58,592 nucleotides of DNA, from positions 1-58,592 of IMG/VR virus record IMGVR_UViG_3300041809_003506; one strand, written 5' to 3'. Within the stretch, counting starts at the first letter, position 1. Every line of letters begins with the position of its first letter. Shown here one piece after another: positions 24,256 to 58,592 of the stretch. This DNA is from a virus. The position numbers and the translations under genes are program-made. A model generated the notes under the pieces. That model made no database searches and was not told the origin of the DNA. It worked only from the letters and a program-made list of their open reading frames with translations.

Positions 24256-24668
24256 CAGACGCCCTCCGCTTTGCCCGCAATAGCGCCCGCAACAATGCGA
24301 GTGCCAGGATCGACTTCAGTGATATTGAAAAGCTCCGTTCCAGGAACGAATGAGTCATCGACCATCGTCCCCGGAATGATCCGATCGTTCTTGCGCAGCG
24401 GCAACGGAAAGCGCTGCTCGGCAAGATCGGCCTGCAGCACGATGAACTCGCGCAAGCCCTCGCTGATTGCCCCAGACTTCGCACCCGATCCGATCGGCGC
24501 CGTCGGCTGATAGGCGCGGAACACCGCCAGCACGACAGCGTCCGTCGTTGCGACGTTCGGCGCCTGGCCGGAAACGCGGCGGAACAGTACCGCTTGCCCG
24601 GTGCGCGCCAGCATGCGCCGATAGGCCGCGACCGCGTTGCGGTCGGGAAGCGCCGGCGCGATGGTCAC
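24255..24668 (-). CDS. Head closure / head-tail joining protein
   Basis: A 137-residue protein by position the head closure (lambda FII-like or SPP1 gp16-like) factor. A mostly beta pattern with RRMLARTGQAVLFRRVSGQA, FIVLQADLAEQRFPLPLRKN and ELFNITEVDPGTRI supports this. Its start overlaps the upstream coding end by 4 bp and its stop meets the gp10-like gene. Confidence 0.7.
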   Translation of the reverse strand: MTIAPALPDRNAVAAYRRMLARTGQAVLFRRVSGQAPNVATTDAVVLAVFRAYQPTAPIGSGAKSGAISEGLREFIVLQADLAEQRFPLPLRKNDRIIPGTMVDDSFVPGTELFNITEVDPGTRIVAGAIAGKAEGV

Positions 24669-25138
24669 CGCGCCACGCCGTTGACGGCGACCAAGGTCTG
24701 CCCGGCATAGGTGCCGGTCGAAACCACGCAGGCCTGCAAACGATCTCCGATCGGTCCGTTGAGCACCGTGTTATTCGACAAGGCAAGATTGCTCGGCGCC
24801 GTCGGCGTGGTGACGGAATTCAACCCCGACAGATTGACCAGCTCGACGCCGGATGAAGTCGTGAATTCGATATTGGCAATATCGAAGAAGCTCTGCCCCT
24901 GATCGACGCTCGTCTGGATGAAGACGTTGGTCTGCGTTCCGCCGGAACCGTAGGCAAAGCGCACCTGCAGGGTGACGGCATCGAGGCCTTGAAGGTTTAT
25001 AACCGGAACCGGCGAGCATTGCGTCCCGGCCGCGGCAACGATGAAGTTGCCGAGGTTAAAGGGACCGGGATTGTCCATCGCCAGCGCCGGCGCGAGCAAC
25101 GCGCAGAGCGCGAAAAGCAAAACTCCGATGCGGCGCAT
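24665..25138 (-). CDS. Sec-signal protein in the connector region
   Basis: A 157-residue protein with a signal peptide (MRRIGVLLFALCALLAPALA) and a beta-sandwich mature domain (TLQVRFAYGSGGTQTNVFIQ; SVDQGQSFFDIANIEFTTSS). Phage connector and head proteins are normally cytoplasmic, so a secreted protein here is unexpected. The mature part looks like a decoration protein fold. It is coupled to the head closure gene. ATG at 25138 chosen over TTG 12 bp upstream. Confidence 0.6.
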   Translation of the reverse strand: MRRIGVLLFALCALLAPALAMDNPGPFNLGNFIVAAAGTQCSPVPVINLQGLDAVTLQVRFAYGSGGTQTNVFIQTSVDQGQSFFDIANIEFTTSSGVELVNLSGLNSVTTPTAPSNLALSNNTVLNGPIGDRLQACVVSTGTYAGQTLVAVNGVAR

Positions 25139-25142
25139 GTTA

Positions 25143-26201
25143 TTATCCAATCACCGGCATGCGATGCTGATCGATCATCGCGGCGATATCAGGCGGGAAC
25201 TGGCCATCGGAACCGGGCCCCGAGGCGAACCAATATTGCGTCTCCAGCGCGCCGACGACGTTCTCGGAACGGATCGAGGGATCGCGCAACCGCCCGTAGT
25301 AGCGCCGCTTGATCAATTGCTCGCAGGCGTCCTGCAGCTCGGGCGGCAGCGTTTCTTTGGTATAGCCCGCCCAATACTGCACGGCGATCGGCAGTGCCTC
25401 CCAGCGCCGCGGCATGCCGTCTGTGAAGTACCGGGTGAGCTGCGCCTTGCCTCGATCGGCGATGTAATCGACGCCCTCGATCAGATTGGTCGGCAGATTG
25501 TTATTGTCAGCATTCGGGACATTCACGGTCACCGAAATGAAGATCGGAAACGTCGGCGCCTGGCCTGCAGTCAAGAGCCCCGCGGCGGGCTCGGTCCATG
25601 ATGCATTCAGGCTGATCGGCGAGGCATTCTGCAGGATCTCCGTTCCTGCGCTCGTCGAGACATAGACGTTCCAGCCGATGGCAAGAGCGGCCGGATCCGG
25701 TTGCGGGTTATCGACCTGCAACAGGCTTCCTGCCGGCACTACGAGGTTCTGTTCTGTCGACGTCCCGGTCTCGCCGGTTGCCGTCACGAACGTCGTGCGC
25801 ACGAAGTAGTTTGTCCGTGCCAGAGATCCGCCGCCCACCGCAGCGATCGTCGATGGCAGCGGCGGCGCCGTGCCGGAGAGCGAAGGTGTGCCTCCGATCG
25901 GCCATTGCGAGAGCTGCAACGGTGCGAATCCCGAGGGCAGCTGCCACGGATAGGGATCGCGGAACGCCCAGAATTGCTCGAGATAGCCCTGCAGCTGGAA
26001 CGTGCGATTGCAGTGCCTTCGAATATCGGTCGAGACCCGCGTGATCGCCCGCTGCAGGAACTTATCAGCGGAACCATCCTTGATATCGAGATCGTCCTTG
26101 AGCGTCGGCAGATCGATCAGATCGTACAAACCGCCGCCCTGGAACAATCCCGCGGTCGGAACCGCGACCGACTCGATGATGGTAGGGCCGGGAGAGACCA
26201 T
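25143..26201 (-). CDS. Head-tail adaptor (gp6-like) with an inserted FN3-like domain
   Basis: A 352-residue protein. The N-terminal DLIDLPTLKDDLDIKDGSAD and KFLQRAITRVSTDIRRHCNR are the helical HK97 gp6/SPP1 gp15-type adaptor. The C-terminus (YTKETLPPELQDACEQLIKR, then RRYYGRLRDPSIRSENV) completes that fold. Between them, about residues 120-225 hold a beta domain (NYFVRTTFVTATGETGTSTE; AIGWNVYVSTSAGTEILQNA) of fibronectin type III character. Adaptors are usually 100-200 residues, so this is nearly double. Confidence 0.8.
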   Translation of the reverse strand: MVSPGPTIIESVAVPTAGLFQGGGLYDLIDLPTLKDDLDIKDGSADKFLQRAITRVSTDIRRHCNRTFQLQGYLEQFWAFRDPYPWQLPSGFAPLQLSQWPIGGTPSLSGTAPPLPSTIAAVGGGSLARTNYFVRTTFVTATGETGTSTEQNLVVPAGSLLQVDNPQPDPAALAIGWNVYVSTSAGTEILQNASPISLNASWTEPAAGLLTAGQAPTFPIFISVTVNVPNADNNNLPTNLIEGVDYIADRGKAQLTRYFTDGMPRRWEALPIAVQYWAGYTKETLPPELQDACEQLIKRRYYGRLRDPSIRSENVVGALETQYWFASGPGSDGQFPPDIAAMIDQHRMPVIG

Positions 26202-27649: not shown

Positions 27650-27874
27650 TTAGATCATCCGCGCCGCGGCTGCGCCCTTGAGCTTGCGGGCAGCCTTGGT
27701 CAGATAGGTCTGCGGCTTGTGCGCTTCGAGCGGAGGGGAAGGCTTGGCACCAGGCGGCCAATCCTCCGCCGAGACAACTTCGCCGCGCGCTGCGGCTGCC
27801 GCTGCGACATCATCCGGCACCAGCGCCGGATTGCCCATGCCTCGAAGCATGCGGTTGAAGGTTACAAGTTTCAT
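27650..27874 (-). CDS. Small protein, unknown function
   Basis: A 74-residue protein starting MKLVTFNRMLRGMGNPALVP with an Ala-rich middle and a basic C-terminus. Its ATG overlaps the stop of the glycosyltransferase gene (ATGA). No family recognised. A longer reading in this frame is rejected because it runs across the glycosyltransferase gene. Confidence 0.55.
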   Translation of the reverse strand: MKLVTFNRMLRGMGNPALVPDDVAAAAAARGEVVSAEDWPPGAKPSPPLEAHKPQTYLTKAARKLKGAAAARMI

Positions 27875-29376
27875 TCTGCGGCCTCCAGGCGCTCGACCGG
27901 CGCCGGCAACATGGTTTCGGCGAGCGCGCCGGTCCATGCCTTGCTGCCGACATGCGACAGCACAATTTCCGGATCGACCCATATCGAACCGCCGAGCTCG
28001 CGCCAGCGCTGACAGAACACATAGTCCTCGCCCATCTCCCGCTGGTCGTCGGGATCGAAGCGGAAAAACTGATAGTAATTCGCCCTGATGTCGGCCGGCA
28101 TATTCGGCGGACCGTCGCGCTTCCAGTCCGGATGCGCGGCGATCAGTTGCTCGAACACGCAGCGCTCCACTTTCATGAACGCAGTGCCGACCGCAAACAC
28201 TTCCACGGCGCCCATGGAGTCCTGCGGCGGGAAACTCATGTCCTTGGCGACCTTGCGGTGCAGGCACCAGACTTCCGGATCGCTGTTCGGCTTGTCGACC
28301 TTCATGCGGCCGACACCGGCAATAACTTTCTGCTCGGAGGCCAATAAGCGCAGCAGCGCATCCGGATTCCAGCCCATGTCGTCGTCGATGAAGACAAGGT
28401 CGGTGCATCGCGACGCCAGGAACTTCGCCGCGATCTTGTTGCGGGCGGCGGGAAGGTTCGACGAGCCGATGATGAAATAGGTCTCGTATGCCATGCCGAG
28501 CTGCGTCAGCTTCACCAGCGTGTCGGCGAAGGCGACCGTGAACTCGAAGACCGGCTGCCGCGCCGTCGGCACACCGATCATCACGCGGCGCGAAACAGCG
28601 CGCTTGCGCCGCGCTTCCACGATCGGATCGGCTTTGGCAGCGACCTTCAATCGCGCCGGCTCATTGCGATGGCTCCTGATCTTCGCTGAGATGACCGCGC
28701 GATCACCCTGCAGCCAGGCGCGATAGATTTCCTCGTCGCCCTTCCACAGACCATTGTGTAGATCCGGCCCATGATGCTTCTGCGTGAAGCCTGCGCCATA
28801 GACATCCTGATGCGTCGCGTCGGGCTGGGCTTCGCCCTTCATGACGTGGGCGTGGCGCACCATCACGTCCATCAGTACGCGCCAGCAAGAGCTGTCGCGG
28901 CCGATCGTTTCCCAAAGATCGTCGACGAACAGATGATGCATGCCGGGCGCGAAGATATAGTCAACCGCTCGGATAAGCTCACCGGACATCACCCAGCAAT
29001 TGGCGACGCGGTTCGGCGCCAGCCAGCCGTCGTTGCAGGACACGATGCCGACGTTCCAGCCATCGAGCGCATCGACCAGGCGCCGATCCCAGGCGATCGT
29101 CTCGGGCACATTGTCGTCGCCGATCAGGCCGAGCCAACCGATGCCCTGCCTTGCCGTTTCCCAAATTTCGCGGATCTTGTCGCCTTGGGTCACACCAATG
29201 GTCTTGATGATCCGCCAATCGTGCGGCAGCTCGAGCGCGTCGTAAGCTTGCCGATGGCGCTCGTAGTCCTTGGCATCGATCAGAAGGAGGCCGGGCGTCG
29301 ACAGGCCGGTCGATCGGCAGGCGTCGAAGAAACGCTCGAGATGACCAGGACGGTCTTTACTAGGCAGCAGCCACAT
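27871..29376 (-). CDS. Two-domain glycosyltransferase (GT-A type)
   Basis: A 501-residue protein with two tandem GT-A-like domains. The first (1-240) has WLLPSKDRPGHLERFFDACR and a DxD-like LIGDDN at 85-89. The second (about 263-500) begins RRVMIGVPTARQPVFEFTVA and carries FIIGSSNLPAARNKIAAKFL followed by VFIDDDMGW (Asp331-333), the usual metal and sugar-nucleotide site. Its start overlaps the end of the radical SAM gene by 17 bp, so the two are likely made together. It lies between capsid and connector genes, where a virion modification role is plausible. Confidence 0.8.
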   Translation of the reverse strand: MWLLPSKDRPGHLERFFDACRSTGLSTPGLLLIDAKDYERHRQAYDALELPHDWRIIKTIGVTQGDKIREIWETARQGIGWLGLIGDDNVPETIAWDRRLVDALDGWNVGIVSCNDGWLAPNRVANCWVMSGELIRAVDYIFAPGMHHLFVDDLWETIGRDSSCWRVLMDVMVRHAHVMKGEAQPDATHQDVYGAGFTQKHHGPDLHNGLWKGDEEIYRAWLQGDRAVISAKIRSHRNEPARLKVAAKADPIVEARRKRAVSRRVMIGVPTARQPVFEFTVAFADTLVKLTQLGMAYETYFIIGSSNLPAARNKIAAKFLASRCTDLVFIDDDMGWNPDALLRLLASEQKVIAGVGRMKVDKPNSDPEVWCLHRKVAKDMSFPPQDSMGAVEVFAVGTAFMKVERCVFEQLIAAHPDWKRDGPPNMPADIRANYYQFFRFDPDDQREMGEDYVFCQRWRELGGSIWVDPEIVLSHVGSKAWTGALAETMLPAPVERLEAAE

Positions 29377-30580
29377 AGGCGCGCTCTCCGTTCAACAACT
29401 TGCGCGTCATGGCGCGCACATCGGCATCGGCCGCAAGCTTGATGACGCCGGCGGCCGGATAATCGAGCCGCGCCTCGTCGATGATGTAGCCGCGATAACG
29501 CTTGGCTGGCTCGATCTCGTGATCGCCGAAGCTCTGCAGATAGCCGCGATCGATTCCGTCGCAAACGTGCATGGCCTGGCAGCCGCGGCACTTCTCCGGA
29601 AACACCTTGCCGGATCCAGCCCGCGCCGCGAACAACTCGATATTGCCGACGCGCTCTTTCAGATCGCGCAGCGGAAATTGCGTTTGTGTATCCTTCAGTG
29701 GCCAGGGCTTGCCCATCTCGCGCATCGAGGAAGACGTTGCCGCAACCGGATCGGCCGTATGGTCGATCTGATTCATCCACTCGTGGGTATCGTGGCGGAC
29801 GCCGACAACGCCGACGTGATTGCGTTCCATGCCGGCGATCATGCACTGCGGCGCGTAGCGGACGGTGCACGCGATGCCCGCAGCTTCAACGGTTGCCACC
29901 GCCTCGCGCAGATAGCCGGCGATCTCCGTGTAGCTCACCCGATGATCGCCGCTGTGTGTCGGCCGCGACCATTGATAGTAGGGCATGAAGAACAGGAACG
30001 TCGTCGCGTAGACTTCCGGACGCGCCGCGATCCACTTGGCGATCTCCGGCAGATATTTGTAATTCTGCTCGGTGATCGTCGTGTTGGTGATGTATTGGAA
30101 GCCGCGACGCTGCAGCGCGTCCATCGCCGCGACCAGAAGCGAGAGCTCGCCGCCGGTCATGGCCTTGAACATCGCCGCGTCGGTCGAATGCAGCGAGAAC
30201 CGAAAATCAACAAGTCCAGCCTCGAGCAGCCGCTCGAGCAGATTGCGCCGCGTGAGGAACTGGCCGAGCGTGATGATGCGCGAGGCAAGCCCGCGCGACG
30301 TTGCATACGCTATCAGATCGACGATATGCGGAAACGCGCCAGGCTCGCCGCCAGTCACATCGAAGCCGAGAAAGCCGTGCTCGGCTAATGAATCGACCAG
30401 CGCCCGCAGATTATCGATGCCATGCCACTTGGCGTGGCGCATGCCGGTGAACTGATCTTCCGTGTCGCCAAGATATGAGTAGAAGCAATGGCGGCATGAA
30501 TGCGTGCATTTGAGGCCCACATCCACGACGCCCCACCGGGACAGCCGGCCTGGCGCGTGGATGTGGAGTCCTTCAAACAC
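29360..30580 (-). CDS. Radical SAM enzyme with SPASM-like C-terminus
   Basis: A 406-residue protein with the CxxxCxxC cluster motif at Cys25, Cys29 and Cys32 (CTHSCRHC), the SAM-binding GGEPG near residue 78, and later TIxLG and FRFSLHSTD strands of the radical SAM barrel. The C-terminal CRGCQAMHVC arrangement (about 335-345) looks like an auxiliary SPASM/twitch cluster, common in enzymes that modify peptides. GTG start; ribosome site weak. It is set between the decoration protein and the glycosyltransferase gene in the late operon. Substrate unknown. Confidence 0.85.
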   Translation of the reverse strand: MFEGLHIHAPGRLSRWGVVDVGLKCTHSCRHCFYSYLGDTEDQFTGMRHAKWHGIDNLRALVDSLAEHGFLGFDVTGGEPGAFPHIVDLIAYATSRGLASRIITLGQFLTRRNLLERLLEAGLVDFRFSLHSTDAAMFKAMTGGELSLLVAAMDALQRRGFQYITNTTITEQNYKYLPEIAKWIAARPEVYATTFLFFMPYYQWSRPTHSGDHRVSYTEIAGYLREAVATVEAAGIACTVRYAPQCMIAGMERNHVGVVGVRHDTHEWMNQIDHTADPVAATSSSMREMGKPWPLKDTQTQFPLRDLKERVGNIELFAARAGSGKVFPEKCRGCQAMHVCDGIDRGYLQSFGDHEIEPAKRYRGYIIDEARLDYPAAGVIKLAADADVRAMTRKLLNGERAYVAAA

Positions 30581-31195: not shown

Positions 31196-32689
31196 TTAGG
31201 TCAGCGCCGGCGCCCAGATCACGCCCTGGTCGACCGCGACCGACGGCAGATGCCGCATCTGGAAATCGTGCTCGGCGATGGCGCGCACGATGGTCTGATC
31301 CTTCTGGAACGCGGACTGCAGCGCGCCAGTCGTATCGTAGTAGGTGCCCTCGCGAGAGATCGCGAGTTCCAGCGTCATCGAGTCGAGGATCATGGCGTCG
31401 TCCATTTCCACCAGGAAGATGAACGTGCAGATCTTCTGCGCCGCATTGGTATCCCACAGGTTGATCGGGATCTGCGTCGACTTCGAGAACGGGTATCCGA
31501 GCAACGTGCCGCGGCTCAGCTCGTCGCGATATACATAGACGCCGAGCGAGTTGAGCAGGTTGTTCAGATAGTTGAAGATCCGCGGATGGAAGAACCAACG
31601 CCGGCGGATATCCGGCACGTTGGCGGTATCGAGCTTGTTGACCAAACCGGCCAGCTCGTTCGCCACCGTTGTGAGCGTGTTGGTCTCGTTCGACGTGATG
31701 AAGTTGCCACCGACCGCATAGGTCGAGTCCGCGGTCGCCGACCAGACGCCGACAGTGCCAGCCTGGTTCGCAACATAGTTGTTGGCGAAGCCAAGAAAGC
31801 CCTTCGGGGTATCGAGCGTGCCGTCGCCGGTGATGAAGGCGAGATCCTCACGCAGCGCGATCACCTTCACCAGGTCGTCGCGCACGAAGGCATCGGCGGC
31901 CGGATCGGCGAAGCGCATCAGGTCGTTGGAGACCGGAACCAAGGCGGTCAGTTTCTTATAGGTCGCAACGATCTGACCGACCTGTTGCTGCGAGGCGTTG
32001 ATCTGCGCGTTTTCCCCGCCGTAGGTCGCGGTCGCCGCGGCCGTCTGTGCCGGGAGCGTCATCGTGCCGCGCGGCATCGGCATGGTGCGCGGGTTTGCAC
32101 TGCGCACGACCGCACGCGGCCGCAAGAGCTCGATGATCTCATTGACGTACTCGGGCGGCACGATGAAGCCGCCGGAAGCGCCGATGCCGGCCGCCAATGC
32201 CTTGGCGATCTGCACCGTGACCGGATGATTCTCGCCATAGGCCTGCTTCGATGCCGCGAGCGCATTGAACGGCGAACCGCCGCCCATCAACAGCGCCTTG
32301 GCGAAGCCACCGACGATCAGACCCTTGTTGGTCATGAGGCCGCGCGCTTTGGCAGCTTCCTCACTGGTATAGGGATCCTTGTTGACGGTGGCGGAAACGC
32401 TGCGTTGCGTTTCCTCCTGGCCGGCAACCGGGACTGCGGTGCGGCGCTCCGCGTCCTGCAGATCGACGGCGCGCTGGATCTCGGCGTCAAACTCTTCGGT
32501 CGTCGCCTTGATCAGAATGTCGACGTCCTCGAGCACTTTCTTGCAGCGATCGAATTCGGCCTGATCGACGGACTTCTTGAAGTCCCTCTTCTCGGCAATG
32601 GCCTTGAAGGCATCGAAGGCGGTTTTGCGCTTGCCGGCGAGCTCGTCGAGCTTCGCCTGTTTGGCTGCGCGCAGGGCTGCGATTTTCAT
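31196..32689 (-). CDS. HK97-type major capsid protein
   Basis: A 497-residue protein. Residues 1-120 form a charged coiled-coil delta/scaffold domain (RAAKQAKLDELAGKRKTAFD), expected to be cut off by the prohead protease. The mature part begins around ARGLMTNKGLIVGGFAKALL and includes GFIVPPEYVNEIIELLRPRA, TMPMPRGTMTLP, VSNDLMRFADPAADAFVRDD and GYPFSKSTQIPINL, all typical of HK97-fold capsids. GGAGAT precedes the ATG. Longer starts are rejected because they overlap the spacer to the protease gene. Confidence 0.95.
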   Translation of the reverse strand: MKIAALRAAKQAKLDELAGKRKTAFDAFKAIAEKRDFKKSVDQAEFDRCKKVLEDVDILIKATTEEFDAEIQRAVDLQDAERRTAVPVAGQEETQRSVSATVNKDPYTSEEAAKARGLMTNKGLIVGGFAKALLMGGGSPFNALAASKQAYGENHPVTVQIAKALAAGIGASGGFIVPPEYVNEIIELLRPRAVVRSANPRTMPMPRGTMTLPAQTAAATATYGGENAQINASQQQVGQIVATYKKLTALVPVSNDLMRFADPAADAFVRDDLVKVIALREDLAFITGDGTLDTPKGFLGFANNYVANQAGTVGVWSATADSTYAVGGNFITSNETNTLTTVANELAGLVNKLDTANVPDIRRRWFFHPRIFNYLNNLLNSLGVYVYRDELSRGTLLGYPFSKSTQIPINLWDTNAAQKICTFIFLVEMDDAMILDSMTLELAISREGTYYDTTGALQSAFQKDQTIVRAIAEHDFQMRHLPSVAVDQGVIWAPALT

Positions 32690-32808
32690 TTCGATATCTC
32701 CGAAAGAGTTGAGTGAATGCGCCTCACGGGTCGGGCGTGTCGCGATGCGACGCGCTCGGCGCGGCGAAAACCCCGGCGTGTCACCGGGCAAAAAGCTGGA
32801 ACGGAAAG

Positions 32809-46400: not shown

Positions 46401-46404
<4 letters not shown>
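46045..46404 (-). CDS. TSCPD-domain protein
   Basis: A 119-residue protein. The segment HCGFHYTAGVGRYGHGRIGE, VFLNVSKSGTALETHARDGA, VMLSLLLQHGCSIDAIRETI matches the TSCPD domain found at the C-terminus of class II ribonucleotide reductases and as standalone proteins. In stand-alone form its function is unclear; a nucleotide-related or zinc role is possible. It overlaps the DUF5131 gene. Confidence 0.75.
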
Positions 46405-47560
<1,156 letters not shown>

Positions 47561-47564
<4 letters not shown>

Positions 47565-51226: not shown

Positions 51227-52234
51227 CTAGGAACGACCCTCGGCCCCTTGTTGTTCGGATAAGCCGAGGCTACGGATCAGATTGGCACTATCGGCGAAAC
51301 GCGCATGGCCGAGCCATGCGGCAAGGAAGCTATCGAGACGTTTATGATCGCCGGCGGCGCGATAGGCGGCGATCTTGCGTCGTGCACGGATGACGCTGTC
51401 GCGCCGCAATAGCTTGTGCGTCGACCAGATGAGGTAGCCGAGAAAATTGATGCCGCGGCTTGCCGGCGCGATCTGCCATTTCGAGAAGCGCAAGCCCAGC
51501 TCAGCGCGCGAGAACGCCTCGATGCTCTCCTTGACGGCGCGCAGATGACGGGAGCTCTCGCCGAGCACAACGAGATCGTCCATGTAGCGAAACCAGTAAT
51601 CCTCGCCCAGCGTCTGCTGCAGATGCCGATCGAGCGTAGCGCCGGTGTAAAGATTGGCGAAGACTTGCGAGGTGAGGCTGCCGATCGGCAGGCCGATGCC
51701 GCGCCGCGGCACCATCGCTTCGATCAACCGCAACGTGGCTTGGCAGCTGATCTTCGCTTCGATCAGGCGCCAGAGCGCGCCATGCTCGATCGAGGCAAAG
51801 TATCGAGAGAAATCCGTCTTCAGGAAATAGACCTGGCCCCGGCGCGAGAGATGCCGGAGATCGCGCTGCAGGGCGATCGCGCCGGCGTGCGTGCCCTTGC
51901 CGGGGCGGCAGGCGAAGCTACGCGGCAGCAACGCGCGATCGAAGATCGGCGCGATGATCAGGCACAACGCCTGCTGCGCGACCCGGTCGCGGAACGGCAA
52001 CGCCGAGATCAATCGTCGCTTCGGATCGAGGATGAAAAACTCGTTCGGAGCGCCAGGCGAATAATGACCGGCCGCCATGTCCTGGGCGAGATCGGCGAGA
52101 TTGAGCGCGTCATATTCCTTGAAATCGAGATAGCCAGCGGTCAGACGCTTGCCGCGCGCCGTCAACCGATAGGCTGTCTGCATCGTTTCGAACGATGTGA
52201 TCTGGCCGATGAGGTTGCGGTAACGCTGTGACAT
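51227..52234 (-). CDS. DGR reverse transcriptase
   Basis: A 335-residue reverse transcriptase. Motifs: KTDFSRYFASIEHG (139-152) for the first catalytic Asp, GLPIGSLTSQ at 181-190 (the GxxxSQ form that marks DGR enzymes), and YMDD at 217-220 with the two catalytic Asp. The thumb follows (FSKWQIAPASRGINFLGYLI). It lies 183 bp downstream of TR. The ATG at 52234 starts the RT homology; the same frame stays open upstream through TR to 52585. It copies TR RNA and, with Avd, makes adenine-mutated cDNA. Confidence 0.96.
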   Translation of the reverse strand: MSQRYRNLIGQITSFETMQTAYRLTARGKRLTAGYLDFKEYDALNLADLAQDMAAGHYSPGAPNEFFILDPKRRLISALPFRDRVAQQALCLIIAPIFDRALLPRSFACRPGKGTHAGAIALQRDLRHLSRRGQVYFLKTDFSRYFASIEHGALWRLIEAKISCQATLRLIEAMVPRRGIGLPIGSLTSQVFANLYTGATLDRHLQQTLGEDYWFRYMDDLVVLGESSRHLRAVKESIEAFSRAELGLRFSKWQIAPASRGINFLGYLIWSTHKLLRRDSVIRARRKIAAYRAAGDHKRLDSFLAAWLGHARFADSANLIRSLGLSEQQGAEGRS

Positions 52235-52417
52235 TCCTGGTTCGCACGCTGAGATGAAGATGCCGGCCGCGGGTCTCGACGGGCTTTGCCCGCTACGCCC
52301 CGCTCTGCCGGACCTTGAAGTGTGTTCGCCGAAGCAGGACAGACGGGCTGACCACCGACCTTGATCTTGTGTGGCCGGCCGGCGTGACCTTAGTCGTCGC
52401 CGAGCCGTGATCCGGTC

Positions 52418-52544
52418 GTCACAGCGGCCGCGAGCGCCCAAGTTATCGTTCGAGTTGTCCGGCCAGTTGTAGGCGACGTTCGCGTAGCGCGAGCCCGCGT
52501 TGTCGACGTTGAGCCAGGAACCGCCGAAGAAGGAAGCGCGCGGC
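52418..52544 (-). repeat. DGR template repeat (TR)
   Basis: A 127-bp segment matching VR at a constant offset of 564 bp. On the coding (minus) strand TR has adenines at 20 positions; nine differ in VR (plus-strand coordinates 52450, 52455, 52467, 52468, 52470, 52480, 52501, 52503, 52510), and none of the other 107 bases differ. Six of the eight altered codons are AAC in TR. It begins 5 bp after the avd stop. The GC-rich end (52421-52440) is the likely IMH-star region. Confidence 0.97.
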
Positions 52545-52548
52545 AGCA

Positions 52549-52935
52549 TCATATCCCCGTCCGCCCTCCGAGCTTCTTTTGCCACGCGCCCAGCATCCGC
52601 CCCGGCTCCGACAAGAGCGCTAGAGCAGTCTTGTGTTGATGCGGGGTGATGATCCGGATGCTGTCGCGGGCTAAGAAGCGCAGGTATGACCGCAAGGTCG
52701 CGAACTGAGCATCGACGGCGTGCAGCCGGGATATCTGTCTCGACTTTGCGGAGTGATAGAGGCCGCCGATCGGCTCGAACAACGCGGTTAACACGGTGTC
52801 GCGAAGAACGCCATGTTGACGCGGGCTGCGCTGCAGGATCGGGTAGAGATAGCTCACGAAGGCCTCGTATTTTTCGACGATCGCCAAAGCGTCAGTGCTG
52901 GTATTTTCGTCTCTGATGATCGTCGTTTCGTTCAT
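52549..52935 (-). CDS. avd: DGR accessory variability determinant (Avd-like)
   Basis: A 128-residue, basic, all-helical protein with LAIVEKYEAFVSYLYPILQR then SPRQHGVLRDTVLTALFEPI, GGLYHSAKSRQISRLHAVDA and TALALLSEPGRMLGAWQKKL. This fits the four-helix bundle of Avd proteins that form pentamers and bind RT and TR RNA. It sits between target gene and TR, as in Bordetella phage BPP-1. Its stop overlaps an ATG (ATGA) that opens the TR frame. Confidence 0.92.
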   Translation of the reverse strand: MNETTIIRDENTSTDALAIVEKYEAFVSYLYPILQRSPRQHGVLRDTVLTALFEPIGGLYHSAKSRQISRLHAVDAQFATLRSYLRFLARDSIRIITPHQHKTALALLSEPGRMLGAWQKKLGGRTGI

Positions 52936-52963
52936 TTCTCAAGCGCCGTCGCTGTCGCGCCGG

Positions 52964-53878
52964 CTAAGCAAGCTGCAGGTGGTCACAGCGGCCGCGAGCG
53001 CCCAAGTTATCGTCCGAGCTGTCCGGCCAGACGCAGGCGACGTCCGCGTAGCGCGAGCCCGCGTAGACGACGTAGAGCCAGGAACCGCCGAAGAAGGAAG
53101 CGCGCGGCTCGTCCGGATCGCCATCGTGGCCCCAAACCCACATATTGCCGGTCGCCTGCATCAAGCCGAATTTGCTGGTGCGAGGCGCATCAAGCGCGGT
53201 GACGCGAGGGTTGCTGGAATGCGCGGTCTTTTCCGTCACGCCGAGGGCGGCGGCAAAGAACTCCTCAACGCTGAGCAATCCCTTGCCGTGATGCTTCATG
53301 ACGGCAACGGCCGTGTCATAGTCGAGCTTGGAGAAATGCTTGCCGTTCGGCTTTGCCGGCGGATCGTCGCCGTCCGCGATCGTCGCACCCAACTTGCTGG
53401 TGCCGTCGGCGACGTGGCTGACGCCGAGTAAATAGATATCGCACCAAAATTTGCCGGTCGGCGCATCGACCAGCACCATGCCGCGCGGATCGGGGCATAC
53501 CGGACGAAAACTCAGATCCCATAGTGAGTAGGGATTAATCGCCGGGATCTCATCGCCGCCTTTACGCGCTGCCGCGCTGCCGCCTGGCGCGAAGTGGAAA
53601 CCGCCGAGGATATCGTCTCCGACGATCGGCGAGGTTAGATGAGCGTAGCCGACTGCCCCGTCCTTGATCACAACGACGTAGTCGCAGCCAGGCTCCAAGG
53701 GAATGTCGAAAACGACGGGCGTATCCTTATCAAAGGTCACGCCGGCGTAGATCGTGCCGGCCTTGATTGCAATTGAATCTCGTCCGGTCACCAGCAGCGC
53801 CGGCGAGTTCGGATCCTTTTTGACCATCGTCGCCGTCGCGGCGGCGAGCCCGGTCTTCAATGCAGCATGCGAGTTCAT
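52964..53878 (-). CDS. DGR target protein with C-terminal lectin-type (FGE-like) variable domain
   Basis: A 304-residue protein. Residues 1-100 form a beta-rich N-terminal domain (PNSPALLVTGRDSIAIKAGT; IYAGVTFDKDTPVVFDIPLE). The C-terminal domain ends with FGLMQATGNMWVWGHDGDPD and ASFFGGSW, typical of the formylglycine-generating-enzyme-like C-type lectin fold used by DGR targets. Residues changed relative to TR are 269, 271, 272, 279, 282, 283, 287 and 289, on the expected binding face. GGAG precedes the ATG. It is probably displayed for ligand binding, but the virion location is inference. Confidence 0.93.
   Translation of the reverse strand: MNSHAALKTGLAAATATMVKKDPNSPALLVTGRDSIAIKAGTIYAGVTFDKDTPVVFDIPLEPGCDYVVVIKDGAVGYAHLTSPIVGDDILGGFHFAPGGSAAARKGGDEIPAINPYSLWDLSFRPVCPDPRGMVLVDAPTGKFWCDIYLLGVSHVADGTSKLGATIADGDDPPAKPNGKHFSKLDYDTAVAVMKHHGKGLLSVEEFFAAALGVTEKTAHSSNPRVTALDAPRTSKFGLMQATGNMWVWGHDGDPDEPRASFFGGSWLYVVYAGSRYADVACVWPDSSDDNLGARGRCDHLQLA
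52982..53108 (-). repeat. DGR variable repeat (VR)
   Basis: The 127-bp recipient repeat in the 3' end of the target gene. Differences from TR on the coding strand are A to G (5) and A to T (4) only, over eight codons, for example Asn to Tyr, Asp to Val, Asn to Ser. The identity runs to within 18 bp of the target stop. The GC-rich end (52985-53004) is the likely IMH. Confidence 0.97.
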
Positions 53879-57214: not shown

Positions 57215-57660
57215 CGCGCGCCCTACCCTCACGCGATCAGATCGGCCCCGACACGCCGCTGCGACTCGCCGACGCCGTCGCCACGGCCTACCCCTGCGGC
57301 GGAATGACCGTTAGCGGGTTACGCACAGAGGCACGCAAGGGGCGCCTTGTCATCGAGCGCGTGGCGGGCAAGGATTTCACCACCTTGGCGGCGATCGAAC
57401 GTATGAGGGTACTATGCCGCGGACAGCAACCGGACCTCACCTCTGGCTCCGCCCCGAACGCCGCAATCGACGCGGACACGTCACTCACCAGGCCAGCTGG
57501 ATCATTGTCGACGGAAAACATCAACAAGGCACTAGCTGCCTTCACAGTGACCGCCGAGGAGCTGAGCGAGCGCTTGAACGCTACATCGGCCTCAAATACC
57601 GCGACGCGGCGAAAGCGGGCACCCGTGATCCAGCTTCGATCCCGGTCGTCGACGTCCTAA
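57211..57660 (+). CDS. Excisionase-like DNA-binding protein
   Basis: A 149-residue protein. The first half contains TPLRLADAVATAYPCGGMTV and SGLRTEARKGRLVIERVAGK, a MerR-like winged helix typical of excisionase proteins in rhizobial prophages. The C-terminal half is low complexity, and its gene shares 247 bp with the integrase gene in another frame. It should direct integrase toward excision. Confidence 0.7.
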   Translation: MTRALPSRDQIGPDTPLRLADAVATAYPCGGMTVSGLRTEARKGRLVIERVAGKDFTTLAAIERMRVLCRGQQPDLTSGSAPNAAIDADTSLTRPAGSLSTENINKALAAFTVTAEELSERLNATSASNTATRRKRAPVIQLRSRSSTS

Positions 57661-58592
57661 CTCTCTATGCAGCGAACATCGTCCCGCGCCATGCGCGGCC
57701 GCGCGAGACGCTGGCCCGCATTCAACGGTTGGTCGACTTCTTCGGCAATAAGGCGCTCGCCGATATCAACGGCGAGCTCTGCCGCAGCTTCGTCCGCGCG
57801 CGGTCGACGCCAGGTGCCGGCCGTGACGATCTCAGCGTGCTGCGCGCCGCGATCAATCACCATCGCGAGGAAGGGTATTGCCGCGAGCTCATCAGCGTCG
57901 CGCTGCCGGAAAAGAGCCGCGGCCGGGAACGATGGCTGACCCGCGCCGAGGCGGCCGAGCTGATCTGGCGCGCCTGGCGCTTCCGCGAAAAACAAAAGGG
58001 CAGGGCGACGGCGCGGGCAAGCCGCCAGCACGTCGCCCGGTTCATCCTGGTCGCGCTCTACACCGGGAGCCGCGCCGGCGCCGTCTGTTCGGCAGCGCTC
58101 GATCCGATCGAGGGTAGGGGCTTCATTGATCTCGACCGCGGCATCTTCTACAGGCGCCCTGCGGGGGCCGCTGAAACGAAGAAGCGGCGGCCGCCAGTAC
58201 CGTTGCCCCGGCGGCTTTTGACTCACCTACGGCGCTGGAAACGGCGCGGGCAGGCCTTTGCCGTCGAATGGAATGGCGCACCCGTCAGAGACGTCGACAA
58301 AGCGTTCCGCCACGTCGCCCACGAAGCCGGCATGCACGACGTCACCCCGCACGTTCTCCGCCACACGGCGGCGACATGGCTGATGCAGCTCGGCACGGAT
58401 CTATGGGAAGCCGCCGGGTACCTCGGCATGAGCGTCGACCAGCTCGAGCGCAATTATGGTCACCATCACCCCGATCATCTCAAGGGTGCCAGGGATGCTT
58501 TCGATCGGCCGCCAAAACGTCGCCAATCCAACGCCATCGCCGAGAGCGATTTAACGGCTTCGAATGTGCGCAAGATCGCCGATAATCGTTGA
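57414..58592 (+). CDS. int: Tyrosine recombinase / phage integrase
   Basis: A 392-residue integrase. N-terminal arm-binding segment with LWLRPERRNRRGHVTHQASW; core-binding domain about 78-165; catalytic residues Arg220 in LYTGSRAGAV, His313/Arg316 in HVLRHTAATW, and Tyr348 in RNYGHHHPDH. The window ends on its stop codon. It overlaps the excisionase gene. It should insert the phage at the tRNA-Pro gene at the other end of the window. Confidence 0.95.
   Translation: MPRTATGPHLWLRPERRNRRGHVTHQASWIIVDGKHQQGTSCLHSDRRGAERALERYIGLKYRDAAKAGTRDPASIPVVDVLTLYAANIVPRHARPRETLARIQRLVDFFGNKALADINGELCRSFVRARSTPGAGRDDLSVLRAAINHHREEGYCRELISVALPEKSRGRERWLTRAEAAELIWRAWRFREKQKGRATARASRQHVARFILVALYTGSRAGAVCSAALDPIEGRGFIDLDRGIFYRRPAGAAETKKRRPPVPLPRRLLTHLRRWKRRGQAFAVEWNGAPVRDVDKAFRHVAHEAGMHDVTPHVLRHTAATWLMQLGTDLWEAAGYLGMSVDQLERNYGHHHPDHLKGARDAFDRPPKRRQSNAIAESDLTASNVRKIADNR

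Follow-up and report, generated by a model that had tools for sequence, protein, structure and literature searches.

What function could a radical SAM enzyme and a glycosyltransferase fulfill when their genes lie within the head operon of a virus, and on which substrate would they act? The question is raised by the window studied here, that is, the whole of a 58.6-kb IMG/VR virus record, the structural operon of which is located on the minus strand. This operon encodes, in order, TerL, the portal, a protease, an HK97-type major capsid protein (MCP), a decoration-type head protein, a radical SAM enzyme (rSAM), a glycosyltransferase (GT), small ORFs and the connector. An integrase gene found on the plus strand (57414-58592) indicates that the phage is probably temperate. 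Elsewhere, the window contains a diversity-generating retroelement (51227-53878), with a reverse transcriptase (51227-52585), an Mtd-like tail gene (52964-53878) and 131-bp variable (52978-53108) and template (52414-52544) repeats having 10 mismatches, 9 of them at template adenines. It also encodes a DUF5131 (Gp37/Gp68-like) protein (46401-47564; 3.2e-96), adjoining an MT-A70/ParB-type gene.

The Two Enzymes and Their Neighbors

Both reading frames were recovered where the initial annotation had placed them (Table 1). The rSAM gene is separated from the preceding decoration gene by 13 bp and overlaps the GT gene by 17 bp (29360-29376), which leaves little room for a separate promoter. In several relatives, the corresponding gaps are larger. 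The capsid and connector genes previously proposed as neighbors were confirmed, since the HK97 MCP, the portal, TerL and the connector are all family matches. The decoration protein matches no Pfam or PHROG family, and its family taken together is likewise devoid of Pfam matches. The best PDB match of its family profile, a weak one (E 0.019), is the cementing protein of phage BPP-1 (entry 3j4u); this fits a decoration role without proving it.

Table 1. Positions in the window of the two enzymes, their motifs and the candidate acceptor proteins.
Feature	Position	Strand	Evidence or remark
HK97-type MCP	31196..32791	(-)	PF05065 2.5e-38; alternative acceptor
Decoration/cementing-type head protein, 173 aa	30594..31115	(-)	Kept between MCP and GT; candidate acceptor
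rSAM, 406 aa, GTG start	29360..30580	(-)	PF04055 2.7e-15
CxxxCxxC, SAM-binding [4Fe-4S] cluster motif (Cys25/29/32, Met counted)	30485..30508	(-)	13/13 relatives
Cys246 of rSAM (Met counted)	29843-29845	(-)	Conserved in 12/12 intact rows
CX2CX5C (Cys331/334/340, Met counted)	29561..29590	(-)	Cys in 12/12 intact rows
Tandem GT, 501 aa, ATG start	27871..29376	(-)	phrog_14945 7.8e-19, phrog_1574 3.7e-22
GT domain D1 (residues 1-235), rSAM-linked	28672..29376	(-)	Identity split, tree, AU tests
D1 acidic motif GDD	29113-29121	(-)	D87-D88; DD invariant
GT domain D2 (residues 255-501), usual domain of the slot	27871..28614	(-)	After decoration gene, 35 loci
D2 DDD motif	28378-28386	(-)	D331-D333; D331 and D333 invariant
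D2 ED motif	28024-28029	(-)	E450-D451
Second small protein, head-tail region	24665..25150	(-)	Conserved; alternative acceptor

The identity of rSAM is well founded. Its Pfam Radical_SAM match spans residues 22-183, and the CxxxCxxC motif characteristic of the superfamily is found in a TIM-barrel core. In an alignment of 13 relatives, where one row (L030) is frame-broken in the region of Cys246, 331, 334 and 340, only seven cysteines are conserved, corresponding to the CxxxCxxC triad and to these four residues. Cys246 and the CX2CX5C motif may thus supply the four ligands of one auxiliary cluster. The SPASM-like C-terminus previously described is retained as far as this motif and the single upstream cysteine are concerned. 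The full seven-cysteine SPASM set is lacking, as the C-terminal part has four cysteines only, and a Pfam search returned no SPASM match in rSAM.

The AF2 model of rSAM (pLDDT 82.9, pTM 0.87) is matched by solved rSAM structures at Z 15-20. The fold neighbors in the PDB are mixed, with no single best one (viperin-like, SuiB, BlsE, MoaA, DesII), so that the fold cannot separate a sugar from a peptide substrate. By sequence, the top match among solved structures is BlsE (7vob, 7.8e-10); this match is limited to the core of rSAM, where identity is about 17-22%, and the corresponding fold Z of 19.3 is tied by many rSAMs.

As anticipated, GT has two domains. Its model (pLDDT 85.7) shows two GT-A folds having DxD-type acidic motifs, DDD together with ED in D2 and no more than an invariant DD pair in D1. 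Neither domain belongs to a Pfam family, and the GT profile had no significant match among PDB sequences. Among solved structures, the closest in fold to D2 is STIV A197 (Z 17.8, 2.1 Å over 162 residues). D1 resembles ppGalNAc-transferases, WrtF and SpsA, and the D1-D2 tandem is similar to bifunctional GTs, for instance heparosan synthase. D1 also matches phrog_2675, labelled 'DNA methyltransferase'. This label is doubtful, because the profile apparently consists of a D1-like GT (81-205) fused to Methyltransf_24 (305-458).

These assignments bear on the idea that rSAM and GT modify the phage DNA, yielding hypermodified, glycosylated bases. Phage GTs often glycosylate DNA, and the phrog_2675 label points in the same direction. 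Nevertheless, given the doubt attached to that label, the location in the head operon and the lack of any base-hypermodification enzyme in the set of window proteins scanned, this explanation appears very improbable.

Gene Order and Joint Inheritance in Related Phages

Scans with rSAM alone gave 11 loci from 11 contigs, one of these loci (L024) being on the contig of the previously found L012; a single-sequence peptide-pattern scan had no match, but a two-row alignment scan did find relatives. The enzyme is found in nine phage lineages including the window, at 46-70% identity. In the ninth (L012), the contig ends inside rSAM. In all eight readable lineages, a D1-D2 GT lies directly downstream, within 1.4 kb, and in seven of these the pair directly follows the MCP and decoration genes. 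The co-occurrence looked for is therefore observed, and random placement elsewhere is not: in the sole exception, L021, the pair sits behind a tail-tube family gene (PF18906; PHROG: minor tail protein) and a gene for a 130-aa protein.

When D2 and capsid proteins were used as queries, a larger set of 35 distinct phage loci emerged. In these, GT comes immediately after the decoration gene or is separated from it by one or two genes for SAM-dependent enzymes. The recognized inserts are only rSAM or methyltransferases of the FkbM, Methyltransf_24, _11 and _23 types. At D2-only loci, the gap between the decoration gene and GT is mostly about -3 to +15 bp. Hence, the view that only structural genes are expected in this slot has to be abandoned, since it is usually occupied by GT in this group of phages. 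Of the 38 lineages having both the MCP and the decoration gene, just two readable ones (L010, L013) lack GT. This fraction is biased, GT having itself served to find many of the loci; searches with MCP or portal only showed GT in 5 of 7 readable slots. As L010 and L013 keep the decoration gene without GT, the latter is not essential to the head. Recurrence of the order in independent contigs argues for more than chance. In many related phages, relatives of the second small protein (24665-25150) come directly after GT.

The linkage of phage GT genes to virion structural genes thus holds at the 35 loci and with other capsid types. At L082 5176-8898, L041 1567-4681 and L091 6320-9710, related GTs adjoin P22-type and Mu-gpT-type capsid genes, and one GT is followed by a methyltransferase and an NAD-dependent sugar epimerase. 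A search of plasmids gave no match. Known phages gave only 23-25% matches, in Campylobacter phages, and that in CP220 is not beside capsid genes. Among 385 genomes of one class, the Magnetospirillum genome serving as center was the only one with rSAM; D1 had no match in this set, which holds no known D1 positive and is hence uninformative for this domain.

The genomic position also bears on the possibility that the two enzymes form a lysogenic conversion cassette, or moron, altering a host envelope glycan and blocking superinfection. Such a role would suit a phage carrying an integrase, temperate phages are known to carry such GTs (PMC12619734) and PHROG files phrog_14945 under moron. We nevertheless consider it unlikely, as the genes are embedded in a tight late head operon offering scant space for a promoter of their own, their position behind the decoration gene is fixed in dozens of phages and the genes scanned included neither a partner flippase nor a membrane GT.

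The two GT domains have different histories with respect to rSAM. D1 sequences are 58-75% identical among rSAM-containing loci and at most 51% identical to the D1 of loci lacking rSAM, whereas D2 displays no such split. A single origin of the rSAM-containing state is not rejected on the D1 maximum-likelihood tree (AU p 0.41), but it is rejected on the D2 tree (AU p 6e-4) and on the MCP tree (AU p 6e-66). Within the D1 group, support is moderate (85/99), and one long branch lacking rSAM (L094) falls inside. In lineages that have MCP and decoration genes, 7 of 11 with D1 contain rSAM, versus 0 of 24 with D2 alone (kinship uncorrected), and rSAM and D1 pairwise distances are weakly correlated (Mantel 0.32, p 0.06). 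Because the AU tests leave the D1 of rSAM-containing loci as one group and the D2 and MCP of these loci scattered, rSAM and D1 move together between head operons. On a plain reading of these comparisons, they travel as a unit that becomes joined to resident D2 genes.

A Possible Route to a Tailored Virion Glycan

On the basis of these results, it can be proposed that rSAM and GT constitute a late, self-directed virion glycosylation module. D2 would use a nucleotide sugar made by the host to glycosylate an exposed protein of the virion, the most likely one being the product of the decoration gene immediately upstream, with MCP as the alternative. D1 would add a further or alternative sugar, which rSAM would make or alter either at the stage of the nucleotide sugar or once the glycan is attached; epimerization, dehydration, decarboxylation and oxidation are candidate reactions. 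The radical SAM enzyme would thereby occupy the niche held by methyltransferases in the same slot of sister phages. The enzyme families and folds, the order and conservation of the genes and the joint inheritance of rSAM and D1 are observations. Within this scheme, we infer late co-expression, a virion substrate, a glycan rather than a peptide as substrate of rSAM, and the rSAM reaction itself; taken as a whole, we judge the scheme somewhat more probable than an even chance. Because the enzymes co-travel and adjoin the decoration gene, the phage probably covers its particle with a sugar altered in an unusual way. An acceptor other than the decoration protein is conceivable, since the L021 pair lies behind a tail-tube family gene.

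The genomic context of bacterial rSAM relatives bears on the substrate of rSAM. These proteins, 39-52% identical to that of the window, are found in Humidesulfovibrio, Desulfocurvus and Magnetospirillum (L026-L032), where they adjoin genes for GT41, Gly_transf_sug, TPR-GT4, a PglD-like methyltransferase and a glycerophosphotransferase. In the Desulfovibrionales glycan loci of this set, two or three rSAM paralogues are adjacent to each other.

The initial annotation had seen in rSAM a form common in peptide-modifying enzymes. On that reading, rSAM might alter an amino acid of a virion protein by oxidation, cross-linking or epimerization, and so create or flank the site glycosylated by GT. The auxiliary-cluster cysteines, the presence of SuiB, SkfB and anSME among the fold neighbors, the directly adjoining structural gene and the resemblance of D1 to polypeptide GalNAc-transferases would all agree with such an activity. 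However, the bacterial relatives belong to glycan clusters, the best solved sequence match, BlsE, is a sugar decarboxylase, the SPASM set is incomplete and no residue of the decoration protein marks the rSAM-containing loci, none being clearly specific to them in a search for such residues. Peptide modification thus seems rather unlikely, while deserving consideration. Glycan tailoring is better supported, because the bacterial relatives lie beside glycan genes, methyltransferases replace rSAM in the slot and rSAM is inherited together with a GT domain.

A more specific version of the glycan-tailoring proposal is that a portable rSAM-D1 cassette was repeatedly fused upstream of resident D2 and equips phage particles with a radical-derived sugar or sugar-amino-acid linkage, which would make it the first radical-SAM-tailored virion glycan. 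We advance this version tentatively, its chances being in our opinion a little short of even. If true, phages would go beyond attaching sugars to their particles and would use radical chemistry to remodel these sugars. At one locus, methyltransferases and rSAM would be interchangeable as tailoring enzymes, and such swapping would suggest that the virion surface diversifies rapidly. Moreover, the locus would offer a genetically linked enzyme-acceptor pair for probing this uncharacterized rSAM subfamily and its relatives in bacterial glycan clusters.

Comparison With Known Systems

Mycobacteriophages Che8, Corndog and Myrna encode GTs that modify their own capsid and tail-tube proteins (Freeman et al. 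2023, as cited in PMC12363180 and PMC12619734). Phage GTs would act here as well, but the two citing accounts mention no rSAM. Among the tblastn matches listed for D1 and D2, none is from a mycobacteriophage. In STIV, A197 is a GT that the virus requires and that is believed to glycosylate its capsid protein (PMC10551542). STIV (A197/B345) thus also associates a viral GT with a glycosylated capsid, and D2 has an A197-type GT-A fold. In contrast to the present system, STIV is an archaeal virus, its A197 has one GT domain, with putative donor and acceptor, and there is no accompanying rSAM. In the Actinoplanes phage phiAsp2, a GT and a D1-like GT annotated as an O-methyltransferase (Pas33/Pas34) are encoded shortly after the major head gene; a methyltransferase stands in place of rSAM there, and no D2 match was found.

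On the bacterial side, the surface-glycan clusters L026-L032 contain the same rSAM subfamily, likewise beside glycosyltransferases and methyltransferases, but they are chromosomal, several have further rSAM paralogues and none has capsid genes. BlsE and other sugar-acting rSAMs are similar to the window enzyme in core sequence and fold. In a search of openly accessible literature, we found no rSAM involved in phage virion modification. The earlier suggestion of a new, joint virion-modification system is therefore to be kept in a narrower form. The two genes are conserved as a translationally coupled pair and are linked to that of an exposed head protein; as phage GTs are already known to glycosylate virions, it is the rSAM part alone that would be new.
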